Assembly (NCBI GenBank): GCA_022565805.1 | Contig: JAIULZ010000004.1 | Coordinates: forward strand, 1 to 64,000 | Length of the DNA: 64,000 nt | Direction of reading: 5' to 3' | From: Balneolales bacterium | GTDB taxonomy: Bacteria > Bacteroidota > Rhodothermia > Balneolales > Cyclonatronaceae | Shown: piece after piece, positions 3,939 through 34,611 of the stretch | How positions within the stretch are numbered: the first letter of the stretch is position 1 | How the letters are laid out: each line of letters begins with the position of its first letter | The notes under the pieces: generated by a model | The model's database searches: none | What the model was told of the DNA's origin: nothing | Seen by the model: the letters and a program-made list of their open reading frames with translations, nothing else | Program-made: the position numbers and the translations under genes

Positions 3939-4910
3939 TTAAAGCCATCCATGCCGGCGATACCAGCTTATGGTATCACTAATCCCGTCTTCGAGGGTAA
4001 ATATTTGCCTGTAACCAAGTTCCCGCCGGATTTTTTCTACCGAGCAGGTCCATTGCAGGGTCATTTCCTTCGCTTTGTCTTTATTCATAATCGGATACTG
4101 ACCAACAAACGCACCAAGGGTTTCAAGAATTGTACCGGCGGTAGATACGAGGCCGGGTGAAACTGGTAAAGTTACGAGCCGGCGGCCAAGTGCTTTTGCG
4201 GTAGCGTCTTTAATTCGGGTCCAGCTGTATTCTTCTTCGCTCGAAACAAAATATCTGGATATGCCTGGCTTTTCTGCCGTTGATGCGAGAAGCAGGCCTT
4301 GTACTACGTCGCCGACATGCACCATAGAAATTAATTTAGCTGAGTTTCCTCCAACAATAGGGCAAATACCACGACTGGCAATTTTGAAAAACGAATAAAT
4401 TTGCTCCTCCCGAGGACCGAAAACAGCCGGCGGACGCAAAATAGATATGCAATCGTCGGCCTTGGCAACACGCTGGATCATTTCCTCCATAAGTTTCTTG
4501 GATTCTCCGTACATGCTAACCGGCATAAGCGGGTCTTCCTCATTAAGAGGTCTGGAAAAACTTGGCCCGGCCGCTGCCAAAGAGGATAAGATTACCATCT
4601 TTTTAACGCCGCTTTTCTGCGCGCACCTGATGATATTTTCAGTAGCCTCAACATTCGATTTATAAAAAATATCTGGTGTTTTAGCCTTTACGAGCGCTGC
4701 AAGGTGAAATAGAATATCAGCTCCATCCAGACCTTTCTTTAGGGCTGGGAGGTCGTGAAGGTCTCCTTTAATGGGAATAATTTCTTTGCCATCGAGCCAT
4801 TTTGGCGACGATCGGATAAGGCATCGTACCTCATTTTCCGGATTTCTTAGTAATGCGTCTGCCAGATGGCTGCCAATAAAGCCTGTGCCACCGGTTATGA
4901 ATGCTTTCAT
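3939..4910 (-). CDS. NAD-dependent epimerase/dehydratase-like reductase (extended SDR)
   Basis: A 324-residue extended short-chain dehydrogenase/reductase. The Rossmann glycine motif GGTGFIG is at residues 7-13, the catalytic YxxxK at Tyr134-Lys138, with LSSLAAAGPS before it supplying the catalytic Ser/Thr region. I chose the ATG at 4910 because MKAFITGGTGFIG begins exactly at the fold's first strand; 23 further in-frame codons upstream are unlike the family. It is divergent from the glycosyltransferase at 5413. Family knowledge: sugar epimerases, dihydroflavonol reductases and the bacterial 3-ketosphinganine reductase CerR all use this fold. The nearby serine palmitoyltransferase makes a CerR-like role possible, but substrate specificity cannot be read from the sequence. 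Confidence 0.82.
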   Translation of the reverse strand: MKAFITGGTGFIGSHLADALLRNPENEVRCLIRSSPKWLDGKEIIPIKGDLHDLPALKKGLDGADILFHLAALVKAKTPDIFYKSNVEATENIIRCAQKSGVKKMVILSSLAAAGPSFSRPLNEEDPLMPVSMYGESKKLMEEMIQRVAKADDCISILRPPAVFGPREEQIYSFFKIASRGICPIVGGNSAKLISMVHVGDVVQGLLLASTAEKPGISRYFVSSEEEYSWTRIKDATAKALGRRLVTLPVSPGLVSTAGTILETLGAFVGQYPIMNKDKAKEMTLQWTCSVEKIRRELGYRQIFTLEDGISDTISWYRRHGWL

Positions 4911-5412
4911 AAAAAAATGAAATGTTCGTATATTAATAATCTGCCTCAAAATACAAATTATGGATGTTTGATGAGGCAATAAAGTTTAAATTACTGTATA
5001 GTTGGGGTTCATGTAATGGCAGAATAAAACAAGCTGTCAGGATTCGGCCGTAATTGAGCAATTAATGTATTTTACTGAGTGTGAATATGTTGCAGTTTAA
5101 AGTCACAAGCAAAAGTTCAGGCTGATGGAAACAAATTAAGTAGTTTCGTTTGTGGAGGTGGAACAGCCGGTGCCATACTGAGTACTCATGATTGTTTGTG
5201 AACAAACAGAAGGTTTGCAAAGCCATTTAAAAGGTGAAAATGATAAAGCGCATTAATTACAAATGTGCTTTTTTATCAGACTATATCGGCTAAAAAAAAG
5301 GTTTTAGGAAGCCACTTAAACTCCTTTTTGGGCACAAATAAACGTACACACGTTATTTCATTAAAACTTATATAGAACCCCAAAAAATATCTCAACAAGC
5401 GATAGAAAGAAT
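4911..5412. other. Divergent intergenic region
   Basis: About 500 bp, AT-rich, between the divergent reductase and glycosyltransferase genes, so promoters for both should lie here, though I could not single one out. It contains a terminator-like hairpin at 5245-5275 and, at 5209-5224, the sequence GAAGGTTTGCAAAGCC. The latter resembles the termini of the 142-bp repeat family found elsewhere in the window. No coding region is supported. Confidence 0.5.
5245..5275 (+). terminator. Orphan Rho-independent terminator-like hairpin
   Basis: AAAGCGCATT and AATGTGCTTT pair (one G-T wobble) around a 7-8 nt AT loop, followed by a further run of T. It reads in the plus direction but lies upstream of the glycosyltransferase and downstream of no plus-strand gene, so it could end a short leader or small RNA. 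Confidence 0.4.
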
Positions 5413-6549
5413 ATGACCGGGCTCAAAATTGCCATATTTACCGGAAACTATGTGCACATTAAAGATGGGGTATCCCTTACTTTAAACCGTACCGTAGCAT
5501 ATCTTGAAAAACAGGGGTGCAGTGTCTACGTTTACGGGCCTGATGTTCAGGAAAAAGTGATTGAGCCGGCCGGTATATTTCGTGGAGTACCATCGGTGCC
5601 ATCACCGGGCCGCCCGGAATACCGAATATCGCTATTTTTGCCGGAAGCATATCGTATGGAGCTGGAAACCTTCAATCCGGATGTCGTACATATTGCAACA
5701 CCCGATATTTTAGGGCTGGCAGGGCTAAGATGGGCCAAAAAGCATAAAAAACCCGTCATATCATCCTATCATACTCATTTTCCCAGCTATTTAAGCTATT
5801 ACAATCTGGGTTTTTTGGAAGGTGCACTCTGGAAATACCTGCTATGGTTTTATGGAAAATGCGATAAAATTGTGTCACCGTCTTACTCTATGAATCAGTA
5901 TCTCATTAAAAAAGGGATACCATCCTCGAAAATCGGGCTTTGGACCAGAGGAATAGAAACAGACCTATTTACTCCAGACAAAAGATCTCAAGAATGGCGA
6001 AACACCTATGGCTTTTCAGCTGATGATGTTGTCGTAACTTTTGTTTCACGATTGGTTTGGGAAAAAAATCTGGTCTGTTATGTTAAGGCAGTTCAAAAAG
6101 CCATGAGTGGAAACAAGCACGTAAAAGCAATGGTGGTAGGAGACGGACCTGCACTTGAGGAACTTAGGCAAATGTTGCCGGATGCCTTTTATGCAGGCTA
6201 CAGAGAAAAAGAAGAACTCGCTCTGTTTTATGCAAACTCTGATATTTTCTTTTTCCCTTCTGAGTCGGAAACCTTCGGGAATGTTACGCAGGAAGCCGCT
6301 GCGTCGGGTTTACCGGCACTTGTAGCAGATGCCGTTGGCAGCAAGTCTATTGTATCTGATGAAATAACAGGTTATGTGATTCCACCCCATGATTACGAAG
6401 GGTTTGCAGATAAAATTCTGGAGCTAGCTTCAGACGCGGGGAAAAGAGCGCAAATGGGGACCAAGGCCAGAGAAATGGCATCTCAAAATAGTTGGGATAA
6501 GGTGCTTTCCCGGCTATACTCTCATTACGAAGAGCTTTTAAAATTCTAA
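5413..6549 (+). CDS. GT4-family glycosyltransferase (glycolipid type)
   Basis: A 378-residue GT-B fold, retaining glycosyltransferase. The N-terminal domain opens with a strand and loop (IAIFTGNYVHIKDGVSLTL) like those of glycolipid and phosphoinositol mannosyl/sulfoquinovosyl transferases (MgtA/PimB/SQD2 relatives). The C-terminal nucleotide-sugar-binding domain holds VSRLVWEKNL near 217-226 and the E-x7-E region SESETFGNVTQEAAASGLP near 279-297. It is cytoplasmic or membrane-peripheral; no membrane helix is seen. A second GT4 gene and the serine palmitoyltransferase follow in the same direction with 240-270 bp gaps. A lipid acceptor, perhaps diacylglycerol or ceramide, is inferred from relatives and context only. 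Confidence 0.88.
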   Translation: MTGLKIAIFTGNYVHIKDGVSLTLNRTVAYLEKQGCSVYVYGPDVQEKVIEPAGIFRGVPSVPSPGRPEYRISLFLPEAYRMELETFNPDVVHIATPDILGLAGLRWAKKHKKPVISSYHTHFPSYLSYYNLGFLEGALWKYLLWFYGKCDKIVSPSYSMNQYLIKKGIPSSKIGLWTRGIETDLFTPDKRSQEWRNTYGFSADDVVVTFVSRLVWEKNLVCYVKAVQKAMSGNKHVKAMVVGDGPALEELRQMLPDAFYAGYREKEELALFYANSDIFFFPSESETFGNVTQEAAASGLPALVADAVGSKSIVSDEITGYVIPPHDYEGFADKILELASDAGKRAQMGTKAREMASQNSWDKVLSRLYSHYEELLKF

Positions 6550-6818
6550 CCGAACTGAAAACAGTTAGCAAAGGTTTAATATGGTTCTGCGCAAATGCTG
6601 CTGTATATCTTTAAATTTTTAAGCGCAGCTATAACTTATAGTAGGTATTGCATCTCTGTAAAAAACAGAACCATAGAACCTTGCAAAAAAAGTAACCTGA
6701 ACATTAGCGTTTTTAAAATTAACTTCTGAATCTGCCGGGCATTATTTAAAGCATAGCTGTAGAAGCTGAGGCAGGGCAGCATATAAGTAAACTGTATTCA
6801 GAAAAACTCACATTTCGT

Positions 6819-7949
6819 TTGAAAGTACTCTACATTTCTCACTTACATCCACCTAAAGAGGCAGCCCTTAAAAACATGGGTGGTATGCAGCGCGTTAGCC
6901 TTCAGCTCACCGAGCAGCTGGAAGCATCACAGAGTGTAGAACTTATCGAGTTTACCAGAGAAACAAGGTGGAAGTTTATCGTAATTAAAACAACCTTCTT
7001 TCTTTTAAGGCTGTTCTTTTTTCTGCCAACGTACGTAAAACAAAATAAACCAGACATCATTTTGTTTTCTTCTATGGTAACGGGTTCGCTTGCTTATTTC
7101 CTGCGAAAACGAATTGATATTCCAATGGTCAGTATTTCGCATGGGCATGATGTTACGCTCAATATCGGCATATATCAGTGGCTCATTAAAAGGGTATTCC
7201 GTAGCCTTGATGGCGTGATTTCAGTTAGCTTGGCAACACAGCAGGAATGCCTGAACCGTGGCCTTAAACCCGATAAGTCGGTTGTTCTTCCAAATGGATT
7301 TGATACGCGCGATCTGAATTTGATTTACAATAAGTCGGTTGCGAGAAAAGAAATGAGCAGCGCTTTATCGAAAGATTTTGGTAACAAAAAGATACTCTTA
7401 ACCGTAGGACGCCTTATTAAACGAAAAGGGCATGAGTGGTTTATTCGTGAGGTGCTCCCCGCTGTTAAATCAGATGTGGTTTATCTTGTTATAGGAAGCG
7501 GGCCCGAATTAAATGCTATAGAGAAGTCAGTGCAGGATACGAAACAACACGATAAAGTTATACTTGCCGGGCGTTTGTCCGACGAGTTTTTAGCGTTGGC
7601 TTATTCTGGTGCAGATCTCTTTATTATGCCGAATGTTAAGGTGAAAGGCGATATGGAAGGTTTTGGCGTTGTACTGCTGGAAGCCAATATTCGAAACACT
7701 CCCGCTATTGCAACAAACATAGAAGGAATCAGGGATGTAATAAAAGAAGGAAAAAATGGTTTTCGTATAGAAGAAAGGGATAGTCTAAACTTTTCTGCCA
7801 AAATAGATGAAGTATTAACCGGAGACTTACAGCAACTGTCGGAAGGTAGTCGTTTATATGTGCAGCATAGATTTAGTTGGGAAACCGTTGCCAAAGATTA
7901 TATCAAGTATTTGGCATCTGTTATCTCAAAAAAACAAAACCTTCCGTAG
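6819..7949 (+). CDS. GT4-family glycosyltransferase
   Basis: A 376-residue GT-B glycosyltransferase. It has the N-terminal loop HPPKEAALKNMGGMQRVSLQ, the acceptor-side SHGHDVTLN near residue 108, TVGRLIKRKGHEWFI near 195-209, and the donor-binding MEGFGVVLLEANIRNTPAIA near 280-299, where the ExxxxxxxE pattern is conserved. The start is TTG at 6819 (MKVLYISHLHPP). No ATG lies close enough, and the family normally begins at this strand. It follows another GT4 gene by 269 bp and precedes serine palmitoyltransferase by 244 bp on the same strand. The donor sugar and acceptor are unknown. Confidence 0.87.
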   Translation: MKVLYISHLHPPKEAALKNMGGMQRVSLQLTEQLEASQSVELIEFTRETRWKFIVIKTTFFLLRLFFFLPTYVKQNKPDIILFSSMVTGSLAYFLRKRIDIPMVSISHGHDVTLNIGIYQWLIKRVFRSLDGVISVSLATQQECLNRGLKPDKSVVLPNGFDTRDLNLIYNKSVARKEMSSALSKDFGNKKILLTVGRLIKRKGHEWFIREVLPAVKSDVVYLVIGSGPELNAIEKSVQDTKQHDKVILAGRLSDEFLALAYSGADLFIMPNVKVKGDMEGFGVVLLEANIRNTPAIATNIEGIRDVIKEGKNGFRIEERDSLNFSAKIDEVLTGDLQQLSEGSRLYVQHRFSWETVAKDYIKYLASVISKKQNLP

Positions 7950-8193
7950 CGAATGAAATAAAATGGTTATATTACCACGTTAGATACTTAACACTGTTAG
8001 TCTTTTCCAAAAAAAAATATAAAAATTGGCTCGTTCTCGGTGGACTAAGCGAGTTTAGAGGTTAACTAATATTGATATAGCTATAATTACCTGATTTATT
8101 ACAGGGTGAATGCTGCAAGCCCGTATCAGGTTTGATCAAAGGATTGAAGTAGCTATATTAGAATGATTTTTTTACATATTTAATAGATACAGT

Positions 8194-9444
8194 ATGAGTA
8201 GTGCCCATACAAAAAAGGCAAATGTAGACGTATTTTCCAAAGCTTTTAATTTTACCAAGGCCGACGAAGTTAAGGCTTTGGGATTGTACCCATATTTTAA
8301 ACCACTAACAGAAACAGACGGTACTGTTGTTGTTATTCAGGGGCAAAAAGTTATTATGGCTGGCTCTAATAATTATCTGGGGCTTACCAACGATTCCAGA
8401 CTTATTAAAGCGGCTAAAGACGCCATCGATCGGTATGGTACAGGTTGTACAGGTTCGAGGTATCTTAATGGTACTCTGGATTTGCATCTCGAGCTTGAAG
8501 ATAAGCTTGCCGAATTCCTTCATAAAGAAGCCTGTGTTTTATTTAGTACAGGTTATCAAACAAATGAAGGCGCTATACAAACTATTGCCGGCCGCAATGA
8601 AGAAATCTACAGCGATAAAGACAACCATGCCTGCATTGTAGTTGGTACGCTTTGCTCAAACGCAAAGACGATCCGCTATCCACATAACGATATGGATCAG
8701 CTCAGAAAATTACTGGATCGCTCTAACCCGGATGTGGCAAAAATTATTGTTAGTGATGGTGTTTTTTCTATGTCGGGCAGACTTGCGAATGTACCCGAGC
8801 TGGTCAAAATTTCCAAAGAATATGGCGCACGACTGTACCTGGATGATGCGCATGCAATTGGTGTTATAGGTGATGGTGGTCGTGGTTCAGGTTCTGTATA
8901 CGGCCTTAATGACGATGTCGATCTTATTAGCGGTACATTTTCGAAGTCGTTTGCTTCTTTAGGTGGTTTTCTTGTCGGCGACAGACCTGTAATTGAGTAT
9001 ATTCGCCATAATTCTCCTGCACATATTTTTAGCGCATCTATGCCACCCGCAAACGCGGCTACTGTTCTAAAAGCGCTGGAAATCCTGAAAGAAGAAACAT
9101 GGAGATTAGATCGATTGGAATACATTTCTAATTATATGCGCGAAGGCCTGAGAAAACTTGGGTTTAATGTATGGTCGAGCAATACCCCTATTATACCAGT
9201 TGTAATTGGTGAAATGATGAACTGCTTCAAATTTTGGAAAGATCTTTTTGAGGCAGGTGTCTATGCTAATGCCGTTGTACCACCAGCTGTACCGCTGGGG
9301 CAGTCGCTCATTCGCACGAGCTATAGCGCAACGCATACAGACGATCAGTTAGACCAGATAATTGAGGCTTTCTACAAAGTAGGAGTAAAGCACGGTATTA
9401 TAGATAAAAACGGTCACTCACTTGTATCTATAGCCGGAACCTAA
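8194..9444 (+). CDS. spt: Serine palmitoyltransferase (alpha-oxoamine synthase family)
   Basis: A PLP enzyme that condenses an amino acid with an acyl thioester; for this subfamily the expected reaction is serine plus palmitoyl-CoA to 3-ketosphinganine, the first step of sphingolipid synthesis. The 416-residue protein has His145 (DNHAC, PLP stacking), Asp218 in YLDDAHAIG, and the PLP Schiff-base Lys251 in SGTFSKSFASLGGF. The N-terminal extension of about 45 residues and the SGTFSKS context fit serine palmitoyltransferase better than 8-amino-7-oxononanoate synthase or glycine C-acetyltransferase, and no biotin genes are nearby. A ceramide-synthase-like acyltransferase follows at 9934. Alternative: another alpha-oxoamine synthase with a different amino acid. 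Confidence 0.83.
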   Translation: MSSAHTKKANVDVFSKAFNFTKADEVKALGLYPYFKPLTETDGTVVVIQGQKVIMAGSNNYLGLTNDSRLIKAAKDAIDRYGTGCTGSRYLNGTLDLHLELEDKLAEFLHKEACVLFSTGYQTNEGAIQTIAGRNEEIYSDKDNHACIVVGTLCSNAKTIRYPHNDMDQLRKLLDRSNPDVAKIIVSDGVFSMSGRLANVPELVKISKEYGARLYLDDAHAIGVIGDGGRGSGSVYGLNDDVDLISGTFSKSFASLGGFLVGDRPVIEYIRHNSPAHIFSASMPPANAATVLKALEILKEETWRLDRLEYISNYMREGLRKLGFNVWSSNTPIIPVVIGEMMNCFKFWKDLFEAGVYANAVVPPAVPLGQSLIRTSYSATHTDDQLDQIIEAFYKVGVKHGIIDKNGHSLVSIAGT

Positions 9445-9909
9445 AAATCTTTGTCATTTTGGAGTTAGTGTTTTTGTACGGATTTTACCGATTACTCTGC
9501 ACATGAAAATAAATTCACAGGTTTCTGAAAGATTGATTACTTTTTTTTGAGGCTTTGCGAAACTACTATTTTAATCGTCTGTAGCCGTATTTAAAAATAA
9601 ACCTCGAATATTATCTATAGAGCCTATGAAGAGGTTTATGTTAGTTCCGGCACTGAATACGAACAAATTATAAAGCTGTTCAGAGCTTTCACTTACAGAC
9701 TTATTTTTAATTGACCTTTGTTATATAGGATGGTTCGGCTAACTAAGTTCTAAAAATTACTAATCGCATTCAGAATTGTGCTTCAAAATCCTGCAGAGTA
9801 ATTGCCGGAATTAACTTCATCAATATAATTTCACTCAAAAAGCAGAACAACCAATTGTGCACCTGTACAGGCACGGGCACAGATTCCTGTAGCTTTTGCT
9901 TCATTTCGC
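9445..9909. other. Intergenic region holding a 142-bp repeat copy
   Basis: The 465 bp between serine palmitoyltransferase and the acyltransferase is AT-rich and has no supported coding region. Its central part, 9549-9690, is one copy of the interspersed inverted-terminus element described separately. The rest shows nothing I can name. Confidence 0.5.
9549..9690 (+). repeat. MITE-like intergenic element, copy 1
   Basis: 142 bp beginning GAGGCTTTGCGAAAC and ending CAGAGCTTTC, imperfectly inverted. It shares GGCTTTGC-AAAC-ACT-TTTT, the CGTCT block and the near-terminal AATACGAACAAA block with the copies at 30051-30192 and 54443-54585, at the same spacing and nearly the same length. No transposase is encoded. 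Confidence 0.5.
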
Positions 9910-9933
9910 TTGTTAAATCTTAAGATGACGCAG

Positions 9934-11061
9934 ACTGTTAATTCTTATGAAGTAAGTATTGTGGAAAATTCTTCTCAGATGAAGACTTTTCTGAAATTCC
10001 CTTATTTCCATTATAAAGATGATGAAAACTGGATAGCACCGCTGTATATCCAACAACGGGATTTACTGGATCCGGCTAAGAATCCTTATTTTAATCATAC
10101 AGACGCTGTCTATTTTTTGGCCGAAAAGAATGGTAAACCTGCCGGTAGGTTGGCTGCTTTTATAAACCATGAGTGGATTGATTACAATAAGCAAAATACC
10201 GGATTCTTCGGTTTTTTTGACTGTATTGATGATGTGAAAATGGCCAAACTTCTGTTTTCTATTGCCAAAGATTGGCTTAGAGAAAGAGGCATGGATTCTG
10301 TTATGGGGCCGCTTAATCCCGGCTGGATGTACGAAATTGGCATGCTAATAGAAGGGTTTGAGCAAAAGCCCTACATAATGATGCCCTGGAATAAGCCTTA
10401 CTATCAGAAGCTTGTTGAAAAACAGGGCTTCACAAAAGCGATGGATTTATTCGCATATATTGTGAGCGATAAAGATGTTGCCTTAGACAGAATAGAGCGG
10501 GCCGAAAAAATTGTACGGCACAGGCTACCGGATTTAAATATCAGAACGGTTAATATCCGCGATTTTAAAAACGAAGCAGAAACCATACGTCAGCTTTTTA
10601 ATCAAGCATGGGCTGCAAACTGGGGTTTTTCACCCGTTGGACAAGAAGAGTTTAACCATATTGCTAAAGATCTTAAGCTGATACTCGACAAAGACTTTGC
10701 TCATATAGCAGAAATAAATGGAAAACCGATTGGGTTTTCGGTTGCTCTGCCCGATATGAATCAGGCGTTCAGGCATTTAAGAGATGGTAAATTACTTCCA
10801 ACAGGAATTTTTAAACTGTTGTATCACAAGAGAAAAATTAACAGAATTCGTACAGCCTTGATGGGGGTAATTCCCGAGTATCAGGGTAAAGGTGTAGATG
10901 CATTGTTACACCGGGAAGCTATACGGAAAGGATTGCCGCGCGGTTTTAACGAATCGGAGCTGAGCTGGCTTCTGGAGTCTAATACAGATATGCTGCGGGT
11001 AGCCGAAAAAATTGGCGGTAAAAAAGACAAAACGTTTCGACTGTTTATCTGTGAGTTGTAA
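9934..11061 (+). CDS. GNAT-type acyltransferase, candidate bacterial ceramide synthase
   Basis: A GNAT-superfamily protein of about 375 residues. An N-terminal module (FPYFHYKDDENWIAPLY, then NPYFNHTDAVYFLAEKNGKPAGRLAA) gives the GNAT strands, followed by GPLNPGWMYEIGMLIEGF and MMPWNKPYYQKLVEKQGF. The C-terminal half holds a second GNAT-like strand set ending in a VIPEYQGKGVDALL acyl-CoA loop near 310-323. This architecture resembles the family that contains Caulobacter bCerS, which N-acylates the sphingoid base. Adjacency to serine palmitoyltransferase supports that, but acyl specificity is inference. The start is uncertain: ATG at 9934 (MTQTVNSYEV) is preferred here, and a TTG at 9910 would add 8 residues. 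Confidence 0.72.
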   Translation, partial: TVNSYEVSIVENSSQMKTFLKFPYFHYKDDENWIAPLYIQQRDLLDPAKNPYFNHTDAVYFLAEKNGKPAGRLAAFINHEWIDYNKQNTGFFGFFDCIDDVKMAKLLFSIAKDWLRERGMDSVMGPLNPGWMYEIGMLIEGFEQKPYIMMPWNKPYYQKLVEKQGFTKAMDLFAYIVSDKDVALDRIERAEKIVRHRLPDLNIRTVNIRDFKNEAETIRQLFNQAWAANWGFSPVGQEEFNHIAKDLKLILDKDFAHIAEINGKPIGFSVALPDMNQAFRHLRDGKLLPTGIFKLLYHKRKINRIRTALMGVIPEYQGKGVDALLHREAIRKGLPRGFNESELSWLLESNTDMLRVAEKIGGKKDKTFRLFICEL

Positions 11062-11641: not shown

Positions 11642-13714
11642 ATGAGTGTAAAAACATTAAACGGCACATCCGAATTAGTGCCATCTGATTCCTCGTTTAA
11701 GGTCAGATCCGCAAGTATTAAGAAATTCAGTAAAGAACACTTAATGGAGTCGCTGCGTACAATGATGCTGTCGCGCCGTCTCGACGATAAAATGCTTACA
11801 CTTCTTAAACAGGGAAGAGGATTTTTCCATATCGGTGGTTCCGGACATGAGGCTATACAGATTGCTGCGACCCGAAATATGGTGCCCCGGAAGGACTGGG
11901 GTATGCTTTATTACCGGGATATGGCATATTCGCTTGGTATGGGTATGACAGCGCGGGAGTTGCTTTCTGCTCATTTGTCTAAAGTAACCGATACTTCTGG
12001 TGGGCGGCAAATGCCATCACACTTCAACAGCAAAGAATTTAGAATTTTGTCGGTTTCAAGCGCACTTGGGGCTCAATTTTTGCCGGGTCTTGGGTTAGCG
12101 CAGGGTATTAAGATGATGGGCGACGACGAAGTTGTCTATATATCAACAGGAGATGGCGGAACTTCAGAAGGGTCATTTTTCGAACTCCTGAACTGGGCCA
12201 CAAGAGATAAGGTGCCCGCTGTTATTGTCGTTCAGGATAATAAATATGCTATTTCGGTTCCGGTTAGCGAACAAACCAGCAATAAATCTATTTCTAAAAC
12301 AGTAGCAGGGTTCGAAAATCTTGAAATTATTGAATGCGATGGTACAGATTATTTTAACTCATTCGCGGCTATGGAAAAAGCCGTTGCCTATGCCCGCAGT
12401 GGTAAAGGGCCTGCATTGGTTCATGCGCATGTAGTTCGTTTGCTACCACATTCTTCATCAGATGATCACAGAAAATACCGTAACGAAGATGAGCTGGAGG
12501 CAGATAAGCTTCATGATCCTATTACAAAGCTTTCTCAAAAACTGATCAAAAATAAAATTGCGGATCAGGAAGAGATTGATGCTCTTTTTGCAGATGTGAA
12601 AAAGCAGGTAGATGATGATACCGAATGGTGCAGAAAACAGGATGAACCAACTGCTGCCGATGCACTAACGCATGTGTTATACGAAGGTGAACTGGATCAC
12701 GAATACGAATCGGAAGAACCATCTGGCGAGCCAATTGTGATGGTTGATGCTATTAATCACGCTATTGCTGAAGAAATGGAGAGGGATGAGCGCGTTATCG
12801 TATTTGGTGAGGATGTTGCCGGGGGCAAAGGCGGAGTTTTTACGGCCACAAGAGGTCTTACAGATCGTTTTGGTAAACAGCGTTGCTATAATTCTCCAAT
12901 CGCAGAGGCTTCAATTATTGGTACTGCCTGCGGACTAAGCGTTAAAGGTTTCAGGCCTGTTGTGGAAATTCAGTTCGCAGATTATATATGGCCGGCTATG
13001 CAAATGCTCCGTAATCAGGTGCCGGTACTTCGCTATCGCTCAAATAATGTTTGGGCTAGCCCGATGGTAATACGCGTTCCTTGTGGAGGCTATATCCACG
13101 GCGGACTCTGTCATAGCCAGAATATCGAAGCTACATTTGGTCATATTCCCGGTTTTAAAATTGTAATGCCTTCTAATGCTGCAGATGCTAAGGGCCTATT
13201 AAAGACGGCTACCCGATCTGAAGATCCGGTTTTATTCCTTGAGCATAAGTTCTTGTATCGGCAGGGTTTTGCCAGATCACCGGAACCGGGACCGGATTAT
13301 CTCACTCCAATTGGCAAAGCGAAATTAGTTCGTGAAGGCAGCGATCTTACTATTGTAACCTACGGAGCTTTGGTTCAGAAGGCCTTAAATGCAGCTAAAG
13401 CATGGGCAAAAGAAGGATACGAGATAGAGGTGATTGATCTCCGGACTATAGTACCCTACGATGCTGAAACCGTGCATAATTCTGTACGCAAAACAAATAG
13501 AGTTATAGTTTTACACGAAGATTATGAGTTCCTCGGAATGGGTGGAGAAATATCGGCTCAGATCATGAGCCACTGCTTCGAATATTTGGATGCCCCGGTT
13601 AAGCGTGTTGCGGCTAAATTTGCTCCAATCGGTTTTGCTGCTCCGCTCGAAGAAGAGTTACTGCCGAACGATAAAGATATTGATAGCGCTATTCGCGAAG
13701 TGAAAGCCTATTAA
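11642..13714 (+). CDS. Fused E1 alpha/beta subunit of a 2-oxoacid dehydrogenase
   Basis: The thiamine-diphosphate E1 component, with both subunits on one 690-residue chain. The alpha half (about 30-350) has the ThDP/Mg motif starting GDGGTSEGSFFELLNW and ending in QDNKYAISVP, plus LLPHSSSDDHRKYR with the phosphorylation-loop-like HSSSDD. The beta half (about 365-690) has VFGEDVAGGKGGVFTATRGL, VEIQFADYIWPAMQ and LHEDYEFLGMGGEIS. Fused E1 proteins are common in Bacteroidota and usually act on branched-chain 2-oxoacids; pyruvate is the alternative. No E2 or E3 is adjacent. Branched-chain acyl-CoA would be a primer for iso-branched sphingoid bases made by the nearby serine palmitoyltransferase, which is an inference. 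Confidence 0.92.
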   Translation: MSVKTLNGTSELVPSDSSFKVRSASIKKFSKEHLMESLRTMMLSRRLDDKMLTLLKQGRGFFHIGGSGHEAIQIAATRNMVPRKDWGMLYYRDMAYSLGMGMTARELLSAHLSKVTDTSGGRQMPSHFNSKEFRILSVSSALGAQFLPGLGLAQGIKMMGDDEVVYISTGDGGTSEGSFFELLNWATRDKVPAVIVVQDNKYAISVPVSEQTSNKSISKTVAGFENLEIIECDGTDYFNSFAAMEKAVAYARSGKGPALVHAHVVRLLPHSSSDDHRKYRNEDELEADKLHDPITKLSQKLIKNKIADQEEIDALFADVKKQVDDDTEWCRKQDEPTAADALTHVLYEGELDHEYESEEPSGEPIVMVDAINHAIAEEMERDERVIVFGEDVAGGKGGVFTATRGLTDRFGKQRCYNSPIAEASIIGTACGLSVKGFRPVVEIQFADYIWPAMQMLRNQVPVLRYRSNNVWASPMVIRVPCGGYIHGGLCHSQNIEATFGHIPGFKIVMPSNAADAKGLLKTATRSEDPVLFLEHKFLYRQGFARSPEPGPDYLTPIGKAKLVREGSDLTIVTYGALVQKALNAAKAWAKEGYEIEVIDLRTIVPYDAETVHNSVRKTNRVIVLHEDYEFLGMGGEISAQIMSHCFEYLDAPVKRVAAKFAPIGFAAPLEEELLPNDKDIDSAIREVKAY

Positions 13715-31797: not shown

Positions 31798-34611
31798 TTA
31801 GAAGGTCATTCTAACTCCCATTGTAGCATTCATGTGGTTGAATGATGAGCGGTAGTGAAATTCACGTCCGCCATCGTACCAAAGTTGAGGAGAGTTAGTA
31901 AGGTTTCTGGCATCCGCGAAAATCTGAAGCGTACGCGAAGCCTGATATCTCAGGGTTAGATCGACGCGCTCCTGCCAGCGCATGTAACGGTCGTTACTGG
32001 GGAACAGATGGCTTCTGTGATTAGATACCTGCGATGTGCTTATCTGGTAGAGATAGGTGCTTTGGTAGTTATACGACAACATTCCATAAAATCCACCTCT
32101 TTCAAAAGTAAGCGCCGTATTGATTACGTGTGGTATCTGGCGCGGTAGCTCAACTTCCCGGTCGATTCGAAGCTGTGCTTTGGAGCCCGACAACGTGTAG
32201 TTTGTATATACTCCAAACCCGCTTAAGAAACCGGGTAAGAAGTGCAGTCGCTGCTGCCATGCGAATTCTGCTCCCCAAACTTCTGCAGTAGTACCGTTCT
32301 GCGGCATTCTGGTTTGGAACCCCTCGAATTGCCCGTCTGTTTCTATTGAAACTTCCTCGAAAACAAAGTCTTGTAAGCTCTTATAAAATACACCGGCAGA
32401 TAAAATACCTACGCTTCTGAAGTAGTGCTCGTACATTAAATCCAGATTCATCACCCTCGATGCTTTCAGGTTTGGGTTACCTCGACGAACCGACTCACTT
32501 TCAAAATTGGCGATTTCGAAGGGTGCCAAATCTGTAAACGACGGTCGTGCAATTGCGTTGGTCCATGCAAAACGGATGTTTGACCGGTCTGTTAAATTAT
32601 AGCGTAAATGGGCCATTGGAAAGAAATTCAGATAGGAGTTGCTTTCTTCCATCCGCTGTCTGCCGGAAAACTGCTCATCTTCATCTATTATGGTTCGGTT
32701 GCCTTTGTAGGTTGTTCCGGTATTTTCGGCACGCACACCGGCAAGTAGCATCCAGTTATCCCACTCGATGGTGGTCATGATATAGGCTGCACCTATGGTT
32801 TCCGTTGCAATATAGTCAGATGGATCAGAGACCAGATAAAACTCAAGTTGATCATCAGAATCCATCAGGAAATTATCCATGTTGGCATCTCTGAAAGGTA
32901 CACCCAAACCCCAGTCTACCGTATGGAAAATCTGATACCTGCCATCCACAAGTCTGCGGTTAAACCCATTTGAGGCAACTTCGTTCATGAAGAATGTGCC
33001 ATTTATGTCATTAAACTCGATCACTTCGTGGTCACGCTCTTTATGCTTATGGAAGAAACGCCCTCCGAATTTTAGGTTTGCGGCCGCATTACCCAGACTG
33101 TAAGGCATTGTAAAATTTACTCTTGTATTTATATCATTATCAACTACATCATCAATCCGGTTTTCGTAACGGGTCATTCTAAAACTGGCCGGATCGGAGA
33201 GCACAGCTTCTGAACCGTTTATCCAGTTTAGTCTGGCAGCATTTCGGTCTGAAATGTCGTAGGTCATATCCATCCCGTTAACTCTGTATCTTAAATACTC
33301 CTGATAGGGCGAATTATGGGTGCCGTAGGAATAGGTAAAGCTGTAGTCCATAGTCATGGAGCTAAAATCACTTTCCCCGCCAAGAGTTATGCTGGCAAGT
33401 TCATTCTGGATATGATTACGGCGACCAATTGGTTCTACCCGCACTCCTGAAATTTCATAGACATTGCCGTTCACATTAACAATGTCGCCGCGGTCGGGGC
33501 GAACCCTAAACTGATGCCGAATGCCTCGTTTGTCTCTCATATTGTACATACCTCGTACAAACAAAGAGTTATTTTCATTGAGGCGGTAATCGAGTCTGCC
33601 AGCCAGGGCATACCGATCTGTTTGAAACTCGTACTCACCGATTCTCATCTGATCGATTCGGTCAATCATGCTCCCATTAAATTCCTGCTCTCCCCAGAAA
33701 TGCCGTATATCGTCCATCCTGCGGTTTTCCCGGCTTATATTAGCGCGAATAGAATAGCTTAGATTCCCGCTTGACCGCCCGTAGTGAACGCTGGCTTTAG
33801 GATTTCCGAAACCGGCAAAGTTATGCCATCCACCGGAGGCCATCACATTAAATACTTCATTTTCGCCCACCATACGGTTGGCAACAAGGTTCACAGAACC
33901 GCCAACGTCATCAGCATCCATATCGGGGGTGATAGCTTTTGTAACTTCAATAGCACCGACCAGATCCGAAGATAAGCCGGTAAGTGAAACGTCTCTGTCT
34001 GTAGTTCCTGTTGTAGCTAGTCGTTCGCCGTCGAGTGTAACGGTATTCAAGCCGGGAGCCATACCGCGAACATACATTGCTGTGGCCTCTCCGCGGAATT
34101 CTTCAGTGGAAATACCCGGCATTCTACGAAGGGCATCCGACACATTAGAATCTGGAAAACGCTGAATCTGCTCGTCTGAGACGACAGTTACAATATTAGG
34201 CGCATTTCTTTGGCGGTTAAAAGCGCCTGCCTGACCCACAGCCTGCGCAATAATACTTACGCCTTCCAGTTCGAGAGAGCTTATTTGGAGGACAATATCT
34301 TTGCGAAGTTGAATACCACTTTCAATAACAACACCAACTTCAAAAGACTCATACCCAACATAGGTAAATGCTAAAGTTTGAGCGCCAACAGGTACCCTGC
34401 GTAAACGAAACCGCCCCTCAATGTCTGTTGAAGTACCAATATTTGTACCCTGTACAATTACGGTTACACCTGTTAATGGGTCACCGTTTTCGCTATCGGT
34501 TACTATACCGTAAATGGTTGATCTTTGGTCTTGCTGTGTTGCCATAGCAGTTTGAATTGAAACCAAACCAATTAAAAACAGCAAAGAGATTGACAGTAGT
34601 AGTTTTTTCAT
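31798..34611 (-). CDS. TonB-dependent outer-membrane receptor
   Basis: A 937-residue active transporter. Order of parts: signal peptide (MKKLLLSISLLFLIGLVS), a carboxypeptidase-regulatory-like domain (IYGIVTDSENGDPLTG) at about 33-110, a plug domain with NVSDALRRMPGISTEEF, MYVRGMAPGLNTVTLDGERL and the DDVGGSVNLV strand, then a beta-barrel ending in the C-terminal Phe of GVRMTF. No SusD-type gene is beside it, so it is not a standard polysaccharide-utilisation pair. The substrate is unknown; the neighbouring alkaline phosphatase suggests an organophosphate, but the terminator between them weakens this. Confidence 0.92.
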   Translation of the reverse strand: MKKLLLSISLLFLIGLVSIQTAMATQQDQRSTIYGIVTDSENGDPLTGVTVIVQGTNIGTSTDIEGRFRLRRVPVGAQTLAFTYVGYESFEVGVVIESGIQLRKDIVLQISSLELEGVSIIAQAVGQAGAFNRQRNAPNIVTVVSDEQIQRFPDSNVSDALRRMPGISTEEFRGEATAMYVRGMAPGLNTVTLDGERLATTGTTDRDVSLTGLSSDLVGAIEVTKAITPDMDADDVGGSVNLVANRMVGENEVFNVMASGGWHNFAGFGNPKASVHYGRSSGNLSYSIRANISRENRRMDDIRHFWGEQEFNGSMIDRIDQMRIGEYEFQTDRYALAGRLDYRLNENNSLFVRGMYNMRDKRGIRHQFRVRPDRGDIVNVNGNVYEISGVRVEPIGRRNHIQNELASITLGGESDFSSMTMDYSFTYSYGTHNSPYQEYLRYRVNGMDMTYDISDRNAARLNWINGSEAVLSDPASFRMTRYENRIDDVVDNDINTRVNFTMPYSLGNAAANLKFGGRFFHKHKERDHEVIEFNDINGTFFMNEVASNGFNRRLVDGRYQIFHTVDWGLGVPFRDANMDNFLMDSDDQLEFYLVSDPSDYIATETIGAAYIMTTIEWDNWMLLAGVRAENTGTTYKGNRTIIDEDEQFSGRQRMEESNSYLNFFPMAHLRYNLTDRSNIRFAWTNAIARPSFTDLAPFEIANFESESVRRGNPNLKASRVMNLDLMYEHYFRSVGILSAGVFYKSLQDFVFEEVSIETDGQFEGFQTRMPQNGTTAEVWGAEFAWQQRLHFLPGFLSGFGVYTNYTLSGSKAQLRIDREVELPRQIPHVINTALTFERGGFYGMLSYNYQSTYLYQISTSQVSNHRSHLFPSNDRYMRWQERVDLTLRYQASRTLQIFADARNLTNSPQLWYDGGREFHYRSSFNHMNATMGVRMTF

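Follow-up and report, generated by a model that had tools for sequence, protein, structure and literature searches.

A clustered candidate glycosphingolipid locus in Balneolales, an order within a Bacteroidota class sampled without lipid A genes

Here we describe a five-gene locus at positions 3,939 to 11,061 of a 64,000-nucleotide stretch of DNA from a Balneolales bacterium (assembly GCA_022565805.1, contig JAIULZ010000004.1; hereafter the window), which encodes an extended short-chain dehydrogenase/reductase (SDR), two GT4 glycosyltransferases (GT4a and GT4b), a serine palmitoyltransferase (SPT) and a tandem-GNAT N-acyltransferase (Table 1). Judged from sequence comparisons, the locus as a whole probably makes a glycosylated (dihydro)ceramide, which may replace lipopolysaccharide (LPS). 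For the separate parts of this reading, we consider it highly probable that the locus synthesizes a ceramide, with Spt, bCerS and CerR leading to dihydroceramide, and likely that GT4a, together with GT4b in genomes that have it, glycosylates this ceramide. Replacement of LPS by the resulting glycosphingolipid is what the findings, taken together, naturally suggest, and we regard it as evenly balanced. A pathway of this kind is already known. The interest of the locus lies in the lack of lipid A genes, which was missed in an earlier, sequence-only reading of the same DNA. To our knowledge, loss of LPS is rare in diderm lineages, and it is mainly from Sphingomonas that the replacing lipid is well known.

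First, the locus is conserved in content and order. All five genes that the sequence-only reading had claimed for this interval were found there, in a genome of 4.47 Mb and 290 contigs. The nearest named matches come from Balneolia and Balneolaceae, among them Rhodohalobacter, Balneola and Gracilimonas, in agreement with the order Balneolales; Rhodothermus and Salinivenus loci recovered with them follow the pattern of the other class members. The gene order MutY, Ig-like protein, SDR (reverse strand), GT4a, (GT4b), SPT and GNAT persists in 20 Balneolales relatives, which represent five families, at identities as low as about 45-55% and to the extent that their contigs cover it. The block SDR (-), GT4a (+), SPT (+), GNAT (+) recurs in every Balneolales relative whose contig spans it, with the SDR present in 19 of the 20, the other contig measuring 4 kb; named Balneolales loci whose flanks are long enough show the same arrangement, which is not due to chance. 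GT4b is absent from several genomes of family f3, and another glycosyltransferase stands in its place in G028 and Gracilimonas. In all 20 of these loci SPT is the gene immediately upstream of GNAT, both on one strand, at a median gap of 27 bp, and the pair was also found in 16 of 19 loci of the class, 11 of 20 loci elsewhere in the phylum and 59 of 80 named loci of many phyla, including Zixibacteria, Gemmatimonadota, Planctomycetota and Calditrichota. A divergent SDR accompanies the pair in many loci of other Bacteroidota classes and of other phyla. Because SPT-GNAT pairs outside the Balneolales loci showed no neighbouring homologue of GT4a or GT4b, we take the core trio to be old and the glycosyltransferases to be specific to the Balneolales version. 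The corresponding gap in the window (9445-9924) measures about 480 bp, against the 27 bp median of the relatives; a hidden acyl carrier protein gene, as in proteobacterial clusters, was considered and rejected, as this gap holds no such open reading frame, and no notable repeat was seen in it.

Second, the aminotransferase of the locus belongs with the serine palmitoyltransferases, as had been proposed. In a comparison with PDB entries its best solved relative is the Sphingobacterium SPT (3a2b/8guh, 410 bits), followed by proteobacterial SPT (286 bits), Kbl (at most 263 bits) and cysteate fatty acyltransferase (CFAT; 28eh, 223 bits), so that solved SPTs stand nearer to it than Kbl, BioF, HemA or CFAT do. 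A tree of 41 enzymes places it inside the SPT clade, apart from the threonine-pathway enzyme Kbl and the biotin enzyme BioF with support of 100/99. It retains the pyridoxal phosphate lysine and the active-site motifs GTFSKSF, DDAHA and GSRYLNG, and scores 488 bits against the NCBIfam SPT model, below the cut-off of 640. The window's genome encodes this one SPT-type enzyme and one Kbl-type paralogue. Since CFAT is nested within the wider SPT clade and sulfonolipids are known in the class, we also considered a sulfonolipid (capnine) locus, in which the SPT-like enzyme would take cysteate and the GNAT would N-acylate capnine. However, the PDB scores and the tree led us to reject this, the window enzyme has a GSR motif (residue 87) that is GAR in both CFAT structures, and a cysteate reading is further disfavoured because a separate, true CFAT is encoded elsewhere in Balneolaceae; we therefore regard it as extremely improbable. 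No CFAT-type match was found in the window's own genome. In Balneolaceae (L126-L128, L141-L144), the separate CFAT homologue (465 bits to 28eh for L126) is joined by a second, distant GNAT, and these sequences suggest a sulfonolipid pathway in addition.

Third, the GNAT protein resembles bacterial ceramide synthase. In the GNAT tree it groups with SPT-linked (bCerS-type) GNATs, at 100/100 apart from the second Balneolaceae GNAT, a placement that does not refute the earlier reading. A search of plasmid records with the window GNAT gave 44 matches; in all six that were opened (Sphingomonas parapaucimobilis, Roseomonas, E. coli, Pseudomonas, Rubrobacter and Streptomyces) the gene has an alpha-oxoamine synthase gene and a homologue of the extended SDR in its cluster, which bears out the genomic association of this GNAT with spt. 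In gene content, the Sphingomonas, Roseomonas and E. coli clusters correspond to Caulobacter cerS/cerR. The cluster of S. parapaucimobilis includes lptF/lptG, and that of Rubrobacter has SPT, GNAT and SDR in a row. In Roseomonas the order is lptF, lptG, GNAT, nucleotidyltransferase, which equals Caulobacter CC_1156-1155-1154-1153, where CC_1154 is cerS (PMC11324152), and the Roseomonas GNAT therefore holds the cerS position. The window GNAT matches this Roseomonas protein at 32% identity (218 bits), a link to CC_1154 that runs through gene position and not through the Caulobacter sequence. An AlphaFold model of the window protein (pLDDT 92.6) shows a tandem GNAT whose best PDB match is the tandem GNAT 7q3a; no solved ceramide synthase was among its PDB matches. 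As a separate observation, in the E. coli record NZ_MG591698.1 (L081, 1340-9119) yghO ('protein YghO') stands beside an alpha-oxoamine synthase, an acyl carrier protein, an extended SDR, a fatty acyl-AMP ligase and lptF/lptG, and this region is probably a complete sphingolipid-type cluster in some E. coli.

The extended SDR, put forward earlier as a 3-ketosphinganine reductase, remains a good candidate for this role. Its motifs are intact (GxxGxxG at 7-13, YxxxK at 134-138), and its N-terminus begins at the Rossmann motif, with no signal peptide obvious by eye. In the SDR tree it falls among SPT-linked SDRs of Bacteroidota, where the nearest 14 rows have support of 97/95; rows of the wider clade include Prevotella and Parabacteroides, and all 24 SPT-linked SDRs, the proteobacterial ones included, form one clade in the best tree at a weak 74/55. 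In B. thetaiotaomicron, BT_0972 reduces 3-ketosphinganine in vitro; it had been chosen for its similarity to the yeast and human reductases and carries a GxxxGxG motif (PMC9278070). We thus take the window SDR to be most probably of the CerR type. For Caulobacter it has been proposed that N-acylation comes before the reduction, and CerR there is a periplasmic, inner-membrane-associated protein (PMC11087976). We consider it improbable that the SDR is a nucleotide-sugar epimerase or an HpnA-like enzyme supplying the glycosyltransferases: HpnA is the best NCBIfam model (140.6 bits, far below its cut-off of 367.65), and the low support for the one clade of SPT-linked SDRs leaves some room for such an identity, but HpnA itself forms a separate, supported clade, on which ground we rejected it, and SDR homologues adjoin SPT-GNAT without a detected GT4a or GT4b homologue in other Bacteroidota classes, Zixibacteria, Planctomycetota and others.

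Both glycosyltransferases, described before as of glycolipid type, are present with GT4 domains, and the closest relatives of GT4a point to sphingolipids. Its best matches in plasmid records are four Sphingomonadaceae GT4s at 34-39% identity (top match 38.9%, 285 bits), well ahead of the next. In the reciprocal search the Sphingomonas GT4 found one strong match per genome across 41 Balneolales genomes (263-331 bits, all others at most 70 bits), which is the GT4a of the SPT locus wherever it could be placed. Joint clades of GT4a and the Sphingomonadaceae GT4 were recovered in two trees with support of 97/97 and 98/92. The tree draws the Sphingomonadaceae enzyme nested among those of the class, but the alternative survives an AU test (p 0.26), and we do not adopt this direction of transfer. 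Caulobacter Sgt1 and Sgt2 are GT4s that glycosylate ceramide in sequence and, outside their own family, are most similar to Sphingomonadaceae, where glycosphingolipids replace LPS (PMC6445935). It is unlikely that the core makes ceramide or phosphoceramide while the glycosyltransferases act on diacylglycerol, phosphatidylglycerol or a polysaccharide anchor in a mixed envelope-lipid cluster. In line with such acceptors, among named family models GT4a comes nearest to glucosamine-phosphatidylglycerol synthase (140 bits, far below its cut-off of 480), GT4b is lost in several genomes, and the glycosyltransferase pair is unlinked from SPT in class members outside Balneolales: in nine of the sampled class loci a GT4b homologue (35-41%) lies beside GT4a, away from SPT. 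On the other hand, GT4a is found near SPT in every spanning Balneolales genome and shares its clade with glycosyltransferases of glycosphingolipid makers. The earlier proposal of a glycosylated ceramide gains support from the Sphingomonadaceae counterpart of GT4a, and the sequence-only reading as a whole is supported.

Finally, lipid A genes are missing from the organisms that carry the locus. LpxC was found in none of 85 Balneolales genomes, and LpxB and KdtA (Kdo transferase domain) in none of 41 Balneolales relatives, with positive controls that include Bacteroides; the window's own genome has no match to any of the three. In a sample of 297 Bacteroidota genomes, 74 of them from the class (Balneolales and the Rhodothermus/Salinibacter group), LpxC is absent from all 74 and present in 221 of the 223 others, whereas the Sphingomonas GT4 finds a match at 2.2e-82 or better in all 74 and in one of the 223. 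GT4a, present in each class genome lacking LpxC, therefore fits the lipid-A-less class almost perfectly as a marker. The window also encodes a TonB-dependent receptor (31798-34611), from which we conclude that an outer membrane is present. LptF/LptG were found in 41 of 41 Balneolales genomes, and also in the Thermus and Deinobacterium controls, so that they are no proof of substrate; the LptD model PF04453 found 0 of 41 but missed the Bacteroides control as well. Salinibacter ruber was reported in 2009 to lack LpxA/B/C/D/K, with its non-canonical anchor left unidentified (PMC2800850).

Several observations weigh against a glycosphingolipid that replaces LPS. Genome G153 (family f40; L253) has both LpxC and a GT4a-clade glycosyltransferase, and G300 and G308 (family f49, outside the class) have neither LpxC nor a GT4a counterpart, so the link between GT4a and the lack of lipid A is not absolute; the latter two may have lost lipid A independently and replaced it in another way. 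Most LPS-bearing Bacteroidota also have an SPT-type enzyme and a GNAT of this kind, and a sphingolipid alone therefore does not imply loss of LPS. Loss of lipid A in the class may have been one event, which would make its co-occurrence with GT4a a correlation. Class members outside Balneolales have no SDR near SPT, in addition to their unlinked glycosyltransferases, the Sphingomonadaceae GT4 that groups with GT4a is a candidate, not an established, counterpart of the characterised ceramide glycosyltransferases (ZMO1957 and CCNA_00793), and the literature we found holds no lipid data on sphingolipids in Balneolales. A glycosphingolipid that exists beside a different outer leaflet, made of sulfonolipid, a capsule anchor or an unrecognized lipid A analogue, is accordingly a real if rather doubtful possibility. 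Besides the correlative nature of the co-occurrence, it draws on Salinibacter, which has sulfonolipids (PMC1586193), and on Balneolaceae, whose CFAT and second GNAT make such lipids likely there; yet the window's genome lacks a CFAT-type match as well as LpxC, LpxB and KdtA, and the distribution of GT4a, with a strong match in a single genome outside the class, also speaks for a role in place of LPS.

The sequences show the family-level identity of the genes, their conserved linkage, the lack of lipid A genes and the clade that GT4a shares with Sphingomonadaceae. For the replacement of LPS by a glycosylated ceramide we propose the following route, in which we infer the substrates, the sugar identity, the order of steps, the export by Lpt and the replacement itself. 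Spt would condense serine with an acyl thioester to 3-ketosphinganine, which the tandem GNAT (bCerS) would N-acylate; the extended SDR (CerR) would reduce the 3-keto group, perhaps after acylation as proposed for Caulobacter. GT4a would add the first sugar to ceramide and GT4b, where present, the second, and the glycosphingolipid would be exported by Lpt to substitute for LPS. Caulobacter crescentus (Spt, CerR, bCerS; Sgt1/Sgt2) uses the same three core families and likewise two GT4s, and in its relatives core genes are linked to Lpt genes (PMC11324152, PMC6445935, PMC11087976). As the sequence-only reading had noted, the gene order differs: in the window Spt and GNAT are adjacent and the GT4 pair lies inside the locus, whereas cerS has its own operon in Caulobacter and relatives. 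The window cluster also contains no acyl carrier protein or acyl-AMP ligase gene, and Caulobacter makes LPS, whereas the host of the window cluster has no lipid A genes. Sphingomonas, in which glycosphingolipid replaces LPS, is alike in the lack of LPS, in SPT, GNAT and extended SDR, and in the clade that its family shares with GT4a; it differs in that the window belongs to Bacteroidota (the class with Rhodothermus, Salinivenus and Balneolales) and clusters the glycosyltransferase pair with SPT. Bacteroides and Prevotella, which make ceramides and alpha-galactosylceramide (BF9343_3149), share the phylum, the wider SDR clade and a GT4-type ceramide glycosyltransferase, but core genes are reported to be scattered in sphingolipid-producing Bacteroidota (PMC11334938), and those keep LPS. 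Salinibacter ruber, of the same class, lacks lipid A genes like Balneolales, and the available part of the report on it considers no sphingolipid as anchor (PMC2800850).

What appears to be new is the clustered Balneolales locus with its glycosyltransferase pair, the lack of lipid A genes throughout the sampled class and the GT4 clade shared with Sphingomonadaceae; a partial literature search found no earlier report of any of the three. It may as well be true as not that a whole class lives without lipid A, its outer membrane built on a glycosylated ceramide and its glycosyltransferase of common origin with that of Sphingomonadaceae, perhaps by horizontal transfer. If so, two distant LPS-less lineages may share a key enzyme in this way. 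The locus would probably provide a second example of outer membranes based on glycosphingolipid, and it names candidate enzymes for the LPS substitute, gathered in one cluster in Balneolales.

Table 1. Genes of the locus and a downstream neighbour, with positions in the window
Feature	Position	Strand	Basis or remark
Extended SDR, candidate CerR (3-keto-ceramide / 3-ketosphinganine reductase)	3939..4910	-	Pfam Epimerase/3Beta_HSD; divergent from the other four
GT4a, candidate first ceramide glycosyltransferase	5413..6549	+	Glyco_transf_4 + Glycos_transf_1
GT4b, candidate second sugar transferase	6819..7949	+	Glycos_transf_1/Glyco_transf_4; lacking in some families
Serine palmitoyltransferase (Spt)	8194..9444	+	PDB scores, SPT clade
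Tandem-GNAT N-acyltransferase, candidate bCerS/CerS	9925..11061	+	Acetyltransf_1
2-oxoacid dehydrogenase E1 alpha-beta fusion, neighbour and possible member	11642..13714	+	E1_dh + Transket_pyr

Comparison with the N-termini of relatives suggests that the SDR probably starts at ATG 4910 and not at TTG 4979, and the GNAT probably at ATG 9925 and not at TTG 9910. The E1 alpha-beta fusion follows GNAT in families f1, f2, f3 and f5, but not in f4, and might either provide the branched acyl primers of iso-branched sphingoid bases or stand there by chance.

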